DNA from: Herbiconiux sp. VKM Ac-1786
GTDB lineage: Bacteria > Actinomycetota > Actinomycetes > Actinomycetales > Microbacteriaceae
Length of the DNA: 64,000 nt
Reading direction: 5' to 3'
Assembly: GCF_015350805.1 (NCBI RefSeq)
Contig: NZ_JADKSG010000001.1
Span: 2,156,513-2,220,512, forward strand
A program made the translations under genes and the position numbers. The notes beneath the pieces were generated by a model, which saw only the letters and a program-made list of their open reading frames with translations, did not search any database and was not told where the DNA came from. The first letter of the stretch is position 1; each line of letters opens with the position of its first letter. Positions 37,836 to 46,700 of the stretch are shown one piece after another.

Positions 37836-38405
37836 TCAGAGCTGCAGGGTGCCCGGGGCCCAGGCGTCGCGGGGCGGGGGCGGCGGGAGCGCCACGGCCC
37901 GGCGGCGCAGGCGCTGCTCGCGGCGGCGGCGCCAGCGCGCGAGCAGGGCGCCGGCCACGAGAGCGCCGGCCAGGCCGCCGAGGGTGTTGGCGATCACGTC
38001 GTCGACCGTCGCGAACCGCGCGGGCAGGAAGACGAACTGCGTCAGCTCGATCGCGACCGAGCCGGCGAAGCAGAACAGCACGGCGAGACCCCAGATGCGG
38101 CGTCCGAGCAGCAGCCCGAGCAGCAGCCCGAGGGGGACGAAGAGCGCGATGTTCGACAGGAACTCGACCTGGGGGTAGCCGAGGAACTCCAGCAGGTGAC
38201 GGTCGTGCAGGCCCTTCAGGATGCGCGCGAGCATCCCTCTCGCCTTCTCGTCGACGGGCGAGGGCCACATCACGACGACCAGCACGGCCGCGGCGTACAG
38301 GAGCAGCAGCACGGCCGCGATCGGCCGCGCTCTCGACGGCCTGGATGCGGACGGGCGGGCTCTGGTCGGACTGGTCAGGACGCCTCCCCGGTAGCGAGTG
38401 ACCAT
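37836..38405 (-). CDS. VanZ-family membrane protein
   Basis: The 189-residue protein has four membrane segments with the VanZ pattern: AVLLLLYAAAVLVVVMWPSP, EFLSNIALFVPLGLLLGLLL, LFCFAGSVAIELTQFVF and VDDVIANTLGGLAGAL. VanZ-like proteins are linked to low-level teicoplanin resistance and envelope functions. The start at ATG 38405 is the only one giving the full N-terminus, but no good ribosome site precedes it. A basic Arg-rich tail and a PPPPP segment end the protein. Confidence 0.85.
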   Translation of the reverse strand: MVTRYRGGVLTSPTRARPSASRPSRARPIAAVLLLLYAAAVLVVVMWPSPVDEKARGMLARILKGLHDRHLLEFLGYPQVEFLSNIALFVPLGLLLGLLLGRRIWGLAVLFCFAGSVAIELTQFVFLPARFATVDDVIANTLGGLAGALVAGALLARWRRRREQRLRRRAVALPPPPPRDAWAPGTLQL

Positions 38406-38456
38406 CGTATCCGGCGGCGGCTGGGCGAGCTGTGGGATCATGCTCTCGGGGGGACG

Positions 38457-39665
38457 ATGACCGCATTCGAACGGCCCGCCGCGGGCGCGGTCTCGGCGGC
38501 CACGCTGGCGTTCGGCGTCAGCGCGCTCGGCGTCGCGGTGGTGCTCGTGCTGCTGCGCGCCGTCTACCTCCCGGCCGACTCGGTCTGGCCCGCGCTCGGC
38601 TTCCTCGTGCCGATCGCGTTGCTGATGCTCGTCGCCCGGCGCCGACTCGGCTGGTGGGCGACCGTGCTGCACCTGGTGGTGGCCGCCGTCTGCATCGGCG
38701 GCTACTCGGCGGTCATCCTGACCGAGTCGGGGGAGGCGGTGGCGGAGTCGCCGTTCATCCTCGCGCTGCCGCAGCTCGCGGTGATCTACACCGTGGCGCC
38801 CGCCGTGATGGGCGCCGGCAACCTCGTCGCCATCGCGGCGGCCTATCTGCTCGGCCAGGGCGCGGTGCTGGCGGCGGCCGCGGCGAGCGGGCGCTTCCCC
38901 GACTTCGACGGCTTCACCGCGGTGCTGACCGCCGTCGTGCTCGCCGTGGGCGTGGCCGACCTGATCACCCGCCGCGGGGCCGACCGCGACGCCCGCTCGG
39001 TGGAGCGCGCCCGCCGCGAGGCCGACGCGCTGGCCTACCAGCGCGAGGTGGAGGCGCAGGTGATCGCGCTGTTCCACGACACGGTGCTCGGCGAGCTCAC
39101 CCTGCTCTCGCACCTGACCCCCGGGCCGCTCCCGCCGGGGCTGGCCGACGCCCTGCGCCGCGACCTCGCCCTGATCGAGACCGGACGGCTCTGGCCCGAG
39201 GAGCACCCCTCCGCCGCCGGCCGGGCCGTCGAGGACGTGCCGCTGCCCGCCGCCGTGGCGCGTGCCGTCGCGGGCGGTCAGGAGCGCGGGCTGAGGATCG
39301 ACCTGGCGGGCGACCTCGCCTCGCTGCAGCGGCTCGCCCCCGCCGTCGCTGAGGCCGTGGGGCTCGCCCTCGAGCAGGTGCTCGTCAACGTGCACCGGCA
39401 CGCCGGCACCGAGACGGTCGAGGTCGTCGTCGACGGCGCCGCCCGCGAGGTGGTGCTGATGGTCAGCGATGCCGGCGTCGGCTTCGCGCCCGACGAGGTG
39501 GGCGCCGACCGCCTCGGCGTGCAGCACTCCATCCTCGGCCGCATCGAGGCGGCGGGCGGCCGGGCCCAGCTGTTCACCGCTCCGGGCAGCGGCACCGCCT
39601 ACCTGTTCAGCCTGCCCCCGGCCCCCGAGAACGTCTGGCCCGAACCCGAGCGGGCGAGCGGATGA
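38457..39665 (+). CDS. Orphan membrane sensor histidine kinase (HisKA_3-like)
   Basis: ATG 38457 follows GGGGGGA. The 402-residue protein has about five to six N-terminal membrane helices, then a dimerisation segment with VIALFHDTVLGELTLLSHL. Its His-Asp-Thr matches the phosphoacceptor box of NarX/LiaS-type kinases. HATPase motifs EQVLVNVHRHAG and MVSDAGVGFAPDE follow. Its stop overlaps the next gene (ATGA). No receiver-domain regulator is encoded nearby, so its partner lies elsewhere, or the next gene modulates it. Confidence 0.83.
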   Translation: MTAFERPAAGAVSAATLAFGVSALGVAVVLVLLRAVYLPADSVWPALGFLVPIALLMLVARRRLGWWATVLHLVVAAVCIGGYSAVILTESGEAVAESPFILALPQLAVIYTVAPAVMGAGNLVAIAAAYLLGQGAVLAAAAASGRFPDFDGFTAVLTAVVLAVGVADLITRRGADRDARSVERARREADALAYQREVEAQVIALFHDTVLGELTLLSHLTPGPLPPGLADALRRDLALIETGRLWPEEHPSAAGRAVEDVPLPAAVARAVAGGQERGLRIDLAGDLASLQRLAPAVAEAVGLALEQVLVNVHRHAGTETVEVVVDGAAREVVLMVSDAGVGFAPDEVGADRLGVQHSILGRIEAAGGRAQLFTAPGSGTAYLFSLPPAPENVWPEPERASG

Positions 39666-40834
39666 TCGGCTTCCTGTCCTGGCGGATCGCCCCCCGCCGC
39701 GCCGCCCCCATCGTGGCCGGTGCACTGCATCCGCTGCTCGCCGTCACCGCGATCGCGCTCGTGGCGGTGGCCGTGGTGCGCACGGTGACCGATGCGGAGC
39801 GGATCGGGCATCCGGTGCTCGCCGTCGGTGCGATCGTGGCCGTGGTCGTGACGGGTCTGTCGCTCGTGGTGTCGACCGACCCGGTGCGGCCGCCGACCGG
39901 CACCGTCGCCTTCGCCCTGACGGTGGCGGCGGCGCTCGCCGCCGACGTGCTGTCGTCCGCGGCCGCGTGGGGGGCGTCGAACGTGCTGTGGGACGACTGG
40001 GGGCCCGTGGTGGTGGGCGTCGTCATCCTCTCGTTCAGCATGTTCCGGCCCGGGCGCGAGCTCGCGGCGGCGACCGTGCTGGCGCTCGCGGTCGTGGGCA
40101 CGATCAGCGCGGTGGAAGCCGGCGACCTCCCCGAGACCGTGTCGCCGCTCACCTCGGCCGTGATCGCCTGCACGCCGGTGCTGCTGCTCGGCGTGGCGTC
40201 GTCGGTGTTCTCGTACCGGATGAGCCTCACGCTGGCGCGCCAGCAGGAGCTGGCCGCGCGGGCGCAGCGGGGCCTCGCGCGGCGGGTGCGCATCCGGCTG
40301 CGCGAGCTGATGCGCGACTCGGGCCGCGCCGAGCTCTCGGCCGAGGTGGTGCCGTTCTTCGAGGAGGTGCTGGCCCGCGGCGAGCTCGCCCCCGGCGACC
40401 CGGCGCGGGCGCGGCGGCTCTCGGCGGTGCTGCGCTCCGAGATCCTGGCCGGGTTCGGACTGCCCTGGCTCGAGCGGCTGAAGCGGGCGCGGCCCGGGCG
40501 GCTCGTGGTGCACGATCCCGCGGCGGTGGCCGAGAGCATGCCGGTGGAGCAGAAGGTGGCGCTGCGGGCGCTGCTCACGGCGCTGCTCGCGCATCCGGAG
40601 ACCGAGGCCTCGGCGCTGCACGTGCGGGTGACCGAGGTGGGGGAGCATCGCAGCGTGTTCGTGCGGGCGCCGTGGACCGCGGGGGAGCAGACCGCCCGGC
40701 GGGCCCTCGGCGGCTTCGTCGCCGTGATGGGCACCGCGTTCGGCCGCTCGCAGGTCACGATCGGCGAGGGGGAGCTGCGGCTGCTGTTCGCTCAGAACCC
40801 GCGCGTCACCGACGCCGGGCCGTGGCATGACTGA
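39662..40834 (+). CDS. Membrane protein coupled to the kinase, possibly a degenerate kinase homologue
   Basis: The 390-residue protein starts within the kinase stop codon. It has about five to six N-terminal membrane helices (LLAVTAIALVAVAVVRTVT, VLAVGAIVAVVVTGLSLVV and others), a linker helix (LTLARQQELAARAQRGLARR) and a soluble C-terminal domain. That domain resembles an HATPase fold in layout (VEQKVALRALLTALLAHPET, SALHVRVTEVGEHRSVFVRA) but lacks the N, G1 and G2 ATP-binding boxes. It may be a pseudokinase partner of the histidine kinase. I do not recognise a named family. Confidence 0.65.
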   Translation: MIGFLSWRIAPRRAAPIVAGALHPLLAVTAIALVAVAVVRTVTDAERIGHPVLAVGAIVAVVVTGLSLVVSTDPVRPPTGTVAFALTVAAALAADVLSSAAAWGASNVLWDDWGPVVVGVVILSFSMFRPGRELAAATVLALAVVGTISAVEAGDLPETVSPLTSAVIACTPVLLLGVASSVFSYRMSLTLARQQELAARAQRGLARRVRIRLRELMRDSGRAELSAEVVPFFEEVLARGELAPGDPARARRLSAVLRSEILAGFGLPWLERLKRARPGRLVVHDPAAVAESMPVEQKVALRALLTALLAHPETEASALHVRVTEVGEHRSVFVRAPWTAGEQTARRALGGFVAVMGTAFGRSQVTIGEGELRLLFAQNPRVTDAGPWHD

Positions 40835-40846
40835 GGTGGGAGGCGC

Positions 40847-41707
40847 CTAGTCGTCGATGCTGCGGCTGCGCGGCTGCACCATCGGGATCTCGTCGATGCC
40901 GCCCGAGAGGCGGGCGATGGCGGCCTCGGCGTCGTAGTTCGGGTCGGGCACGATGAACGACGAGGTGATGGCGTGGTAGGAGATGGCCGCGAGCGACACC
41001 TCGGCCGAGCGGCCCTCGTTCTCGATGTTGTAGCGCGCCTCGACGAGGTCGGGGATGATCGCCCGCGAGATGCCGAGGCCCTCGATGACGGCCGAGGAGG
41101 CGACGACCAGGGGGCGGTAGTCGTCGTTCAGGTCGGGGCGGAGGCGGTAGCCGACCGCGGGGATGATGTTGCGGTAGAACACCTCCATCTGGTCGAGGAA
41201 GGCGAGCTCGCTGTTGCGCAGCGACTCGATCACCCGGTCGCGCACGGCGGAGGGGTAGGAGAGGGCGGTCGCGGCCAGGGCCACGTAGGTGCGCCACTGC
41301 ACCGAGGAGGTGACGGCCTCGAAGTTCTGCTCGGCGGCGAGGCTGACGACGTCGAGGTAGATGCGACGGCGGCCCTCGGAGGTGCGCAGCTCGTCGGCGC
41401 GGAAGCCGAGGTACTCCCAGGTGGCGACGAGCGACTCCTCGTCGGCACGGCCGGGGGAGACCTGGTTGGCGACCTCGCTGAGCAGGTCTTCGAAGAAGGC
41501 CTCCTTGGTCTCCCAGAGCTTGTAGACCGCGCTGCGGGGCACGCCGGCCTCTTTGATCAGGTCGTCCATCAGGAGGTGCTCGAAGCCGACCGTGAGGCCG
41601 TTGGTCTGCACGAGACCCATCGCCGTCTGCAGCAGGGCGGTGCGCACCTCGTCCTTGGGCACCTTGCCGCGGCCTGCCGCGGACTTCCCCCAGCTGTTCT
41701 CTGACAT
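40847..41707 (-). CDS. TetR-family regulator, long form
   Basis: At 286 residues it is longer than the usual 190-220. The N-terminal helix-turn-helix is EVRTALLQTAMGLVQTNG, LLMDDLIKEAGVPRSAVYKL, WETKEAFFEDLL. The C-terminal extension (SSFIVPDPNYDAEAAIARLS and beyond) is unusual. GAGAGGGG precedes ATG 41707. It is divergent from the LuxI-like/ThiF-like gene pair. A 7+7 inverted repeat, TTGGGAC-ATAAC-GTCCCAA, lies 25 bases upstream of its start and is the likely operator for both directions. Confidence 0.88.
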   Translation of the reverse strand: MSENSWGKSAAGRGKVPKDEVRTALLQTAMGLVQTNGLTVGFEHLLMDDLIKEAGVPRSAVYKLWETKEAFFEDLLSEVANQVSPGRADEESLVATWEYLGFRADELRTSEGRRRIYLDVVSLAAEQNFEAVTSSVQWRTYVALAATALSYPSAVRDRVIESLRNSELAFLDQMEVFYRNIIPAVGYRLRPDLNDDYRPLVVASSAVIEGLGISRAIIPDLVEARYNIENEGRSAEVSLAAISYHAITSSFIVPDPNYDAEAAIARLSGGIDEIPMVQPRSRSIDD

Positions 41708-41731
41708 CGATCAGCCCCTCTCGGAATCATT

Positions 41732-41750
41732 TTGGGACATAACGTCCCAA
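41732..41750. promoter_or_regulatory. TetR-type operator TTGGGAC-ATAAC-GTCCCAA
   Basis: Perfect 7-bp arms (41732-41738 and 41744-41750) with a 5-base centre in the divergent gap between the long TetR gene and the LuxI-like/ThiF-like genes. Confidence 0.7.
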
Positions 41751-41901
41751 GTTGCAAACGAACACGACCCGCTCTTATGCTCGATTTCACGGCACCCAGC
41801 GCGCGCGGACCAGCCGGTCGATCCCCACCCAGGTGAACAATCGGAGGAACCCGCAGTGCTCCGTGTGGCTCTCACCTCCGAATTCTGCCAGAGGACCGCC
41901 G

Positions 41902-42792
41902 GTGTCGCGCATTGATCGCACCATCTCCAACGCGGCCGTCATCCCACTCATCGACGGGTCGCCCGCCTTCGTCGTCGAGCCGGAAGCCCGCCTCGCCTCG
42001 GGGGTGATCGCCGTGAACGGCGTCGCCCTCCCCGGCTTCGAGGAGGCGTACCGGCAGCACTTCGAGTTCCGCCGCCGCGTCTACGTGGAGCAGACCGGCC
42101 AGCTCGACCCCTCCGACCTCTCCGACGACGGGCTCGACCGCGACGAGGACGACGCCCGCTCGGTGACGTTCGCGATCTTCGAGAACGCGCCGGAGGGCGT
42201 GCGCATCGTCGGCGTGGCCCGCGCCATCATCAAGGGGGCCGTCGGCGTCGACCGGCCGCTGCCGGTGGAGGACTTCTGCCCCGAGGTGTTCGCCGAGCAT
42301 CCGCTGCCCGAAGGGAGCGCCGAGGTGTCGCGCGTGATCGCCCGGCACGAGCGGGTGGCGATGCAGGAGCTCATCCAGTGGCACCTGTTCGCGATCATCT
42401 CCTCCTACTTCACCACCCACGGCCTCGGGCGGGCCTTCGCGATCATCGAGCCCTGGCTCGAGCGGCACCTCGCGGGGATGCTCTCCATCTGGAGCATCGG
42501 CGAGCCGCGCTACATCGAGCACTACCTCGACTACAACCAGCCGGTCGAGTTCGACCAGCCGGGCTCGGCCGACCGCATCAACGAGCGCAACGCCACCATC
42601 CTCGGCCAGCTCGCGGCGGCCGACGGAGAGCTGCAGTACTTCGGGCGCATCTCGCGGGCGCAGCGGGCGCTCGCGGTCGAGTCGGGGGTGGCGCCGGATG
42701 TTCGGGCCGGGGCTGGTGCGGGTGCCTCTGCGGGTGCGGGTGCCTCTGCTGGTGTCGACGCCGCTGCCGGCGAGGTCGCCGAGAGCCTGTGA
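41902..42792 (+). CDS. LuxI/FeeM-like GNAT, putative N-acyl amino acid or autoinducer synthase
   Basis: GTG 41902 follows AGAGGA; the ATG-type frame from 41752 crosses the operator region and is rejected. The 296-residue protein has the autoinducer-synthase/N-acyl-amino-acid-synthase GNAT signature. A receptor loop of YRQHFEFRRRVYVEQTGQLD is followed by an acidic DLSDDGLDRDEDDARSVTFA, then RIVGVARAI, AEVSRVIARHERV and GLGRAFAIIEPWLERHLAG. Such enzymes join an acyl chain from acyl-ACP or -CoA to an amine. The C-terminal tail is Gly/Ala/Ser low complexity. The next gene encodes an E1-like enzyme 16 bases on, so a two-step biosynthesis is likely. Confidence 0.7.
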   Translation: MSRIDRTISNAAVIPLIDGSPAFVVEPEARLASGVIAVNGVALPGFEEAYRQHFEFRRRVYVEQTGQLDPSDLSDDGLDRDEDDARSVTFAIFENAPEGVRIVGVARAIIKGAVGVDRPLPVEDFCPEVFAEHPLPEGSAEVSRVIARHERVAMQELIQWHLFAIISSYFTTHGLGRAFAIIEPWLERHLAGMLSIWSIGEPRYIEHYLDYNQPVEFDQPGSADRINERNATILGQLAAADGELQYFGRISRAQRALAVESGVAPDVRAGAGAGASAGAGASAGVDAAAGEVAESL

Positions 42793-42808
42793 GCGAATCG
42801 CTGCGCCG

Positions 42809-43771
42809 ATGAGATCGCTGAGCGACCCCGAGTTCTCGCGCAACTACGGCTTCTGGAGCGAGGCGGAGCAGCGGGCGCTCACCGAGTCGCGCGTCGCGAT
42901 CGCCGGGGTGGGCGGCGTCGGCTTCCAGGTCGGCACGAAGCTCGCGCGGATGGGTGTCGGGAGCTTCAGCATCGCCGACCCCGAGGTGTTCGAGCGGGCC
43001 AATGCGAACCGCGTGCCCGGAGCGAGCGCGCTGAGCTACGGCCGTTCGAAGGCGACGGTGTTCCGCGAGGAGGTGCTGGCCATCAATCCGTCGGCGGTGG
43101 TCGACGTCCACGGCGACGGCGTCACGCCCTCGAACGCGGCCGAGTTCCTCGCGGGCGCCGACCTCGTCTTCGACGAGTCGGAGACGACTCAGCCCGAGAT
43201 CGGCACGGCCATCGCCCGTCAGGCGCGCGCCCAGGGCATCGCCGACCTGCTCGTGGTGAACGTCGGCTTCTCGTCGATGGCGACGGCGTTCGGGCCCTCC
43301 GGGCGGTTCACCTTCGAGCGCTACATGGGCCTGCCCGAGGGTGCGCCGCTCGACGAGATCGCGCAGCTGTCGGTCGACTTCTCACGCGTCCTGCCGTACG
43401 TGCCGCCGTACAGCGACCTGCGCGGACTCGCGGCGGTCGCCACCGCGGGCCCTGACGGCACGCATCCGTCCCTGCCGTCCATCGCTCCCGGCGTCGACCT
43501 CGCCAGCGCGCTCGGCAGCACGCAGGCGTTCCTGCACCTGATGCACCGCAAGGGGCTGGGGCAACGCCGCCGCCGGCCCGTCTGGGCGCCGCGGGTGGCC
43601 GTGCTCGACGCATACACGGTGACCGGCCGCATCATCCGCGCGTCGAAGGCGACGCACCTGCGGCACCTGCTCGTCGCCGCCGCGCGCGACCGCGCCGGGC
43701 GCAACCCGCGGGGCTCGTACACGCACGAGGACATCGCCCGGCGGGCCCGTCTCGACGACGCCGATCGATGA
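42809..43771 (+). CDS. ThiF/E1-like adenylating enzyme without cysteine
   Basis: ATG 42809 is 16 bases after the previous stop; the ORF extension upstream overlaps that gene. The 320-residue protein has an E1-type ATP-binding Rossmann core: FSRNYGFWSEAEQRALTESR leading to VAIAGVGGVGFQVG (glycine motif residues 33-38), then ADPEVFERANANR supplying the Asp, Asn and Arg for ATP. FDESETTQPEIG fills the usual adenylation position. There is not one cysteine in the protein, so it cannot form an E1 thioester or carry the CxxC zinc sites of ThiF/MoeB. Acyl-adenylate use for amide or N-P bond formation, as in MccB-type enzymes, is inferred. Confidence 0.8.
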   Translation: MRSLSDPEFSRNYGFWSEAEQRALTESRVAIAGVGGVGFQVGTKLARMGVGSFSIADPEVFERANANRVPGASALSYGRSKATVFREEVLAINPSAVVDVHGDGVTPSNAAEFLAGADLVFDESETTQPEIGTAIARQARAQGIADLLVVNVGFSSMATAFGPSGRFTFERYMGLPEGAPLDEIAQLSVDFSRVLPYVPPYSDLRGLAAVATAGPDGTHPSLPSIAPGVDLASALGSTQAFLHLMHRKGLGQRRRRPVWAPRVAVLDAYTVTGRIIRASKATHLRHLLVAAARDRAGRNPRGSYTHEDIARRARLDDADR

Positions 43772-46618: not shown

Positions 46619-46626
46619 CTGATGTG

Positions 46627-46700
46627 TCGGGGTAGCGGGATTCGAACCCACGACCTCCTCGTCCCGAACGAGGCGCGCTACCAAGCTGCGCCACACCCCG
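46627..46700 (-). tRNA. tRNA-Pro (anticodon CGG)
   Basis: On the minus strand the 74-base sequence begins CGGGGTGTGGCGCAGC. It has a GCGC D-arm, anticodon arm CCTCG-TTCGGGA-CGAGG (anticodon CGG, reading CCG), T-arm GTGGGTTCGAATCCCGC, and acceptor end TACCCCG with discriminator A. The 3' CCA is not encoded. Confidence 0.95.

Follow-up and report, generated by a model that had tools for sequence, protein, structure and literature searches.

A TetR-linked LuxI/FeeM-fold acyltransferase and ThiF-family enzyme in Herbiconiux as a possible synthase of a saturated cyclized N-acyl amino acid

The DNA analyzed here, hereafter the window, is a 64,000-nucleotide stretch of the genome of Herbiconiux sp. 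VKM Ac-1786 (Microbacteriaceae; NZ_JADKSG010000001.1, positions 2,156,513 to 2,220,512 of the forward strand). It carries a gene for a GNAT-type acyltransferase of the LuxI/FeeM fold, a ThiF-family (E1-like) gene separated from it by 16 bases, and a divergent gene for a TetR-family regulator with its own predicted operator (Table 1). By analogy with related enzymes, the pair probably puts a fatty chain on an amino acid and closes a ring. With middling confidence, we read the locus as a self-regulated, two-enzyme synthase of a saturated, cyclized N-acyl amino acid under the control of TetR, whose product would most likely be a diffusible cue. Related pairs lie beside genes for signal receptors in other lineages, hinting at an unrecognized class of bacterial signals.

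The TetR-GNAT-ThiF set had been singled out in an earlier note based on the window's letters alone, which called for a survey of gene neighborhoods. The set was confirmed, and the survey found it to be conserved. In the genus, whose loci are mostly titled Herbiconiux, GNAT was present in 15 of 16 genomes, the source genome included (G012 has none). All three genes occurred together at each of the 14 Herbiconiux loci with intact upstream DNA, and the locus of G008 is cut by a contig end. Thirty-three loci were retrieved with ThiF; a GNAT gene adjoined it in 32 and a TetR gene in 24, the nine exceptions being a truncated contig (L054), a Rathayibacter locus (L077), and seven loci not named as Microbacteriaceae. 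TetR lies beside the pair in 17 of the 18 Microbacteriaceae loci of this set from outside Herbiconiux, and the adjacency was seen in Herbiconiux, Agreia, Leucobacter, and Cryobacterium. The Leucobacter and Cryobacterium loci, with flanks of about 6 kb or less, have only the triad in common with the 13 window genes compared; the Agreia loci share up to four downstream genes as well. Retention of the triad while the flanks change counts in favor of the proposed synthase.

The operator postulated in the earlier note also proved real as a conserved element. A search of 15 carrier genomes, 14 of Herbiconiux plus G063, found a 19-bp palindrome at the locus, between TetR and GNAT, in every one. It is kept, with substitutions, in 14 of 14 aligned intergenic regions of the Herbiconiux/G063 group, and in L033 both half-sites carry matching changes. 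Only two further sites with one mismatch were found, one each in G005 and G014, and a reversed-pattern control gave none. In the intergenic regions of the Leucobacter/Agreia group, no common palindrome was seen. Since the operator is almost limited to the locus, TetR looks dedicated to its own locus, and this near-uniqueness supports feedback control and speaks against a wide regulon acting through this operator. Both boxes of the candidate promoter are largely kept in the intergenic alignment; a mechanical promoter scan did not list it.

Table 1. Features of the TetR-GNAT-ThiF locus, in positions of the window.
Feature	Position	Strand	Remarks
TetR-family regulator, 286 aa	40847..41707	-	TetR_N; divergent from the GNAT-ThiF pair
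Predicted 19-bp palindromic operator TTGGGACATAACGTCCCAA	41732..41750		Position kept in intergenic regions of the Herbiconiux/G063 group
Candidate GNAT-ThiF promoter, TTGCAA-18-TATGCT	41752..41781	+	Spotted by eye; directly adjoins the operator
LuxI/FeeM-fold N-acyltransferase (GNAT), 296 aa	41902..42792	+	Fold group from structural matches
ThiF/E1-like adenylating enzyme, cysteine-free, predicted cyclase, 320 aa	42809..43771	+	PF00899 match

The regulator barely passed the TetR_N cut-off (24.6 versus 24 bits), and its profile matches in the PDB were confined to the N-terminal DNA-binding region (query positions 5 to 96). Beyond this region the protein is better kept, with mean pairwise identities of 67% (residues 81 to 200) and 60%, compared to 46% for residues 22 to 80. 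Such a pattern would be expected if the ligand were common and the operators divergent.

The ThiF protein matched PF00899 at 85.9 bits and retains the ATP-site residues G33/35/36/38, R68, K81, and D122. Its translated sequence, like that of TetR, contains no cysteine, and no catalytic cysteine is conserved among its orthologues, in agreement with the cysteine-free enzyme of the earlier note. The best NCBIfam models were PRK08223, PRK14851, and PRK14852 (149.6, 114.7, and 96.1 bits), all under their own cut-offs. Models of ThiF, MoeB, and TcdA scored 58.5 bits or less, again under the cut-offs, and equivalog cut-offs were not reached (PRK08644, 58.5 versus 159; TIGR02356, 52.1 versus 275.25; TIGR02355, 29.5 versus 376.55). 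On these scores and the tree, a sulfur-carrier cofactor role of the MoeB/ThiF kind was rejected. MccB was a weak PDB match.

In a tree of 44 rows, the window protein falls inside a 20-row clade (support, 100/100) of Microbacteriaceae, Saccharibacteria, Acetobacterium, and other metagenome-assembled genomes (MAGs). At the position of D-G/A-x-D in MoeB, TcdA, and PRK14852, most of this clade carries D-E-x-E, and N151xG153 marks further clade-specific positions. In L080 and the second Acetobacterium ThiF, D122 is replaced by N, and these two proteins may be inactive. The hypothesis that the 11 Saccharimonadota rows form one clade was rejected (approximately unbiased test, p = 3e-40), and their non-monophyly may reflect transfer or old paralogues; a single clade of Microbacteriaceae and Rathayibacter was not rejected (p = 0.085). 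A 30-row branch (93/87) takes in the wider group, with L097 and the stand-alone Bdellovibrio protein L098 among its members. L097, a PRK14852 protein of 989 aa from a Nitratidesulfovibrio plasmid, unites FeeM (153.1 bits), ThiF (residues 312 to 588), and an Acg-like oxidase (residues 620 to 985) in one chain; hhalign of its N terminus against the GNAT profile gave a probability of 2.4%, in spite of the fit to Pfam FeeM. The window ThiF is nearest to the PRK08223, PRK14851, and PRK14852 models, and the combination of FeeM, ThiF, and flavin oxidase in a PRK14852 member counts in favor of a synthase.

The GNAT protein had no Pfam match of its own; Autoind_synth, whose cut-off its relatives L074 and L082 passed, gave no hit for it. 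Structural matches assign it to the LuxI fold: the top nine rows of the search were N-acyl homoserine lactone (AHL) synthases, and FeeM belongs to the same fold group. These are also the kinds of enzymes reported to be nearest to TyzA (PMC10404671), and the likeness counts for N-acylation followed by cyclization.

No flavin-dependent oxidase (FDO) is fused or linked to the pair in the window. A PF00881 search of 35 carrier genomes yielded nitroreductases in 30 and none in five, namely, four Saccharimonadia (G283, G285, G289, and G403) and an unclassified MAG (G287). G289 is titled a complete genome, and the other four are possibly incomplete; the fifth Saccharimonadia carrier searched (G376) has a nitroreductase on another contig. 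On the contig of the pair, no PF00881 gene was found within about 35 kb in any of the 35 genomes (coordinates were read by hand, and some assemblies are fragmented), with the smallest distance, about 37 kb, in Acetobacterium. A profile of the TrzS and L097 oxidase domains, run on the open reading frames of L001-L137, L164-L166, and L181-L186, matched none of the GNAT-ThiF loci except L097. Acetobacterium dehalogenans is a strict anaerobe, in which an oxygen-dependent desaturase would not work.

We propose that GNAT would move an acyl group from a thioester (acyl-CoA or acyl-acyl carrier protein) to the amine of an amino acid and that ThiF would adenylate the carboxylate of the resulting N-acyl amino acid with ATP. 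The amide oxygen would then attack the activated carboxylate to give a 5-oxazolone (azlactone), a ring that would remain saturated in the absence of a linked flavin oxidase. TetR would repress the pair from the palindrome until the product or a precursor relieved the repression, and the output would in this way feed back on synthesis. The part of a diffusible cue is the most likely one for the cyclized compound, as judged from the genes that neighbor such pairs. We derive this chemistry from related enzymes. TyzA N-acylates Tyr and Phe, the ThiF homologue TyzB cyclizes with ATP, and TyzC desaturates (PMC10404671), and TrzA and TrzS perform the corresponding steps for Trp (PMC12856293). When the oxidase of TrzS was disabled or oxygen was limited, the saturated ring was formed in vitro (PMC12856293).

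Several observations weigh against a saturated-ring synthase. The model of TrzS (Rv1355c) gave the window ThiF 47.7 bits, under its cut-off and no better than the ThiF and MoeB models, and in the 44-row tree this biochemically tested cyclase sits on a long, weakly placed branch (82/22); TrzS was the oxazolone cyclase represented in these comparisons. With D-E-x-E in place of D-G/A-x-D, the chemistry of the clade could differ. Recombinant cells with TrzA and TrzS showed no saturated ring for the C5 compound (PMC12856293), and producers of N-acyl tyrosine with ThiF genes gave no oxazolones (PMC12479983). An unlinked 276-aa nitroreductase of the source genome (C1:98100) weakly matches the oxidase profile (26 bits) and could act in trans. 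Finally, a nearly unique operator fits feedback control of a metabolite as well as it fits a signal.

The case for a signaling role comes from other lineages, among them Saccharibacteria, whose relatives of the pair adjoin a histidine kinase gene. GNAT and ThiF genes followed by a histidine kinase gene, with response regulators upstream, were found at L074, L076, L080, L082, L132-L137, and L166 (the kinase is cut by the contig in L134, the regulators are 3 to 4 kb off in L076 and L136, and L080 is titled only "bacterium"). The scanned kinases passed HisKA and HATPase_c; those of L166 and L184 also passed HisKA_7TM, and the membrane part of the others was read by eye. L085 ends before any kinase domain and has no regulator in its short upstream stretch, and the short sequence covered for L094 contains nothing of the set but GNAT and ThiF. 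In L134, L135, L137, and L166, GNAT and ThiF are fused into one protein of 547 to 558 aa. Of the three fusions scanned, L137 and L166 passed both the FeeM and the ThiF cut-offs and L134 passed ThiF only; oxidase-free FeeM-ThiF fusions thus occur in Saccharimonadia. In a third lineage (f74), two GGDEF-HD proteins flank the pair in L164, and in L165, where GNAT and ThiF are convergent, one GGDEF-HD protein and two proteins with a LuxR-type helix-turn-helix (HTH) lie nearby. The recurrence of kinases with response regulators, GGDEF-HD proteins, and LuxR-HTH proteins as neighbors counts in favor of a signaling role for the product; these loci are mutually related, so their counts are not independent events.

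A rule that every LuxI gene of Saccharimonadia has this ThiF was discarded after a survey of 294 genomes. Autoind_synth was over its cut-off in six: four have a ThiF of this clade (G283, G289, G376, and G428), G506 has a TrzS-type ThiF, and G314 has a methyltransferase. Eight genomes had matches below the cut-off; this ThiF accompanied them in G344, G360, G366, and G575, a kinase without such a ThiF was present in G308 and G447, and neither was seen in G443 and G444. In G506 (L181, 3611 to 7831), the LuxI-family gene overlaps an oxidase-free TrzS-type ThiF gene beside a histidine kinase gene; this ThiF appears to be a second cyclase type in the same setting. In G314 (L182, 3989 to 7903) and G308 (L183, 5998 to 9914), a LuxI/FeeM-like gene is followed by a methyltransferase gene (by a Pfam scan of the L182 copy only) and a histidine kinase gene, perhaps another signal chemistry.

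More tentatively, and with the balance somewhat against it, these loci may form a separate class of small-molecule signaling, in which a LuxI/FeeM-fold acyltransferase with a ThiF cyclase, or a fusion of the two, would make a saturated cyclized N-acyl amino acid sensed by receptors that could replace one another, namely, TetR (Microbacteriaceae), a membrane histidine kinase and its response regulators (Saccharibacteria), and GGDEF-HD or LuxR-HTH proteins (other lineages). If so, AHL systems would be a minority among the LuxI-kinase loci of Saccharibacteria, and the compound made through the LuxI-like genes of Saccharibacteria and Microbacteriaceae would differ from the AHLs presumed until now. 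Cultivated Saccharibacteria are reported to be epibionts of Actinobacteria; the actinobacteria and this epibiont phylum might then have signal chemistry in common. The oxidase-free arrangement would also show that the two-enzyme unit can stand alone. The physiological role of oxazolones has been termed a major unresolved question (PMC12856293), and regulator-linked pairs in the culturable Herbiconiux, Agreia, and Leucobacter would make it testable.

Among other explanations, the most serious, though we consider it unlikely, is a role of the product as a membrane or stress lipid, with TetR a mere feedback regulator rather than a signal receptor. The near-uniqueness of the operator would suit such a role; membranes can contain N-acyl amino acids, and cell pellets yielded C12:0-tyrazolone (PMC10404671). 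A lipid of this kind does not readily account for the unrelated types of sensor genes that adjoin the pair in other lineages. Alternatively, instead of cyclizing the activated N-acyl amino acid, ThiF might join it to another amine, to a thiol, or to a hydroxyl, so that a linear amide or ester results. Enzymes with E1-like folds catalyze couplings of many sorts, as the MccB match illustrates, and the clade-specific D-E-x-E and N151xG153 would be in keeping with this chemistry. We regard it as quite unlikely, since the nearest experimentally described partners of such acyltransferases cyclize (PMC10404671 and PMC12856293) and since the Leucobacter and Cryobacterium loci have no window gene in common beyond the triad, their own flanking genes being left unannotated.

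It is rather improbable, too, that the acyl-oxazolone pathway is complete, with the 276-aa nitroreductase desaturating the ring in trans to give tyrazolone-like lipids. Its weak match to the oxidase profile has similar counterparts as top matches in most other Herbiconiux genomes searched, but its 219-aa matched part is far under the NCBIfam cut-offs (BluB, 46.8 versus 150; Acg, 46.7 versus 199), the gene is not linked with GNAT and ThiF, and nitroreductases are missing altogether from five of the 35 carrier genomes. Least probable of all is that GNAT makes AHLs proper from S-adenosylmethionine, with an accessory role for ThiF: the best structural matches of GNAT are AHL synthases, but AHL synthesis is not known to need ATP-dependent activation of a carboxylate, the tryptophan typical of LuxI is not an invariant column of the GNAT alignment, and in L097 and L137 it is FeeM, of the same fold group, that is fused to ThiF. 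The assignment of LuxI homologues beside sensory kinases to AHLs in Candidate Phyla Radiation (CPR) genomes by Bernard et al. 2020 speaks for such a synthase (PMC7567580).

The ThiF is not widely conserved, and its distribution is patchy. It was found in 13 of 249 genomes of the family and 12 of 294 genomes of the class of G283 (E 1e-20) and, at E 1e-30, in 3 of 396 genomes of the phylum, the source genome included, and in 1 of 245 of the class of Acetobacterium, that genome being Acetobacterium itself. Phage cargo was rejected: 18 stretches of viral_contigs matched a pattern, with no confirmed relative among them, and the ThiF matches in phage records were all weak and partial (10 records, none covering 80%). 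Plasmid cargo was likewise rejected, as 109 plasmid records held only distant relatives, none covering 80%. On the Rhodococcus qingshengii plasmid pN9T4-3 (L096, 3879 to 6762), an IS256 transposase gene lies between a GNAT gene and a ThiF gene of broadly this kind, and the stretch has no nitroreductase annotation. The Rathayibacter sp. locus (L077, 5264 to 9843) has GNAT and ThiF without TetR; downstream, the other strand encodes a membrane-like protein and a LuxR-type HTH response regulator. Acetobacterium dehalogenans (L075, 4337 to 9929) has two ThiF genes and three GNAT genes, of which two are intact and one is divided between two overlapping frames. In L081 (Uhrbacteria), ThiF is present and GNAT was not detected.

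Next to TetR, the window contains a histidine-kinase-like gene and an overlapping second gene that has no Pfam match over the cut-off and looks membrane-like by eye (38196 to 40834). Of the 13 other Herbiconiux loci with long flanks, 9 have homologues of the histidine-kinase-like genes next to TetR, and no compared locus from outside the genus has them there; the kinase genes (38436 to 40834) were therefore excluded from the unit. The sole tRNA found in the window is tRNA-Pro (cgg), at 46626 to 46700.

Among known systems, the closest are the acyl-oxazolone systems (OxzA/OxzB, TyzA/TyzC/TyzB, and TrzA/TrzS), with which the window shares an N-acyltransferase of the FeeM/BjaI fold group adjoining a ThiF with an intact ATP site. 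It differs from them in having no linked or fused FDO, in its divergent TetR with its own operator, and apparently in the clade of its ThiF, TrzS being weakly placed in the tree. The order given in the earlier note, N-acylation, carboxylate activation, and then ring closure, agrees with that published for such enzymes, whereas its description of the enzyme pair as an undescribed kind does not hold, because published acyl-oxazolone pathways already pair an N-acyltransferase with a ThiF cyclase (PMC10404671 and PMC12856293). An acyltransferase-only pair is not described in the parts of these two papers that were covered. The published ThiF network colors its nodes by an FDO neighbor, an acyltransferase neighbor, or both, and acyltransferase-only pairs may therefore already be in that figure (PMC12856293). 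With the LuxI AHL synthases (BjaI, RpaI, and EsaI), the locus shares the fold, most conserved positions (in LuxI numbering), and a linked regulator; here, a ThiF is the partner, TetR or a histidine kinase adjoins, and there is no indication of S-adenosylmethionine use. Bernard et al. put 18 LuxI homologues of CPR genomes with a neighboring sensory kinase under AHL (PMC7567580). Likened as a class rather than locus by locus, these are probably of the same synthase-kinase kind as the Saccharimonadia loci described here; the difference is their assignment to AHLs in a main text from which the words "ThiF" and "adenylyltransferase" are absent. The clusters for N-acyl tyrosines (thalassotalic acids, kyonggic acids, and stieleriacines) resemble the locus in combining an N-acyl amino acid synthase with a ThiF, but they include a nitroreductase, and no oxazolones were observed (PMC12479983). 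Judged by titles, abstract starts, and passages, the open-licence PMC literature gave no description of an oxidase-free GNAT-ThiF-TetR or GNAT-ThiF-kinase unit. Within the literature covered, the new part thus appears to be the variant that dispenses with the oxidase and has a dedicated regulator, together with its wider link to receptors.

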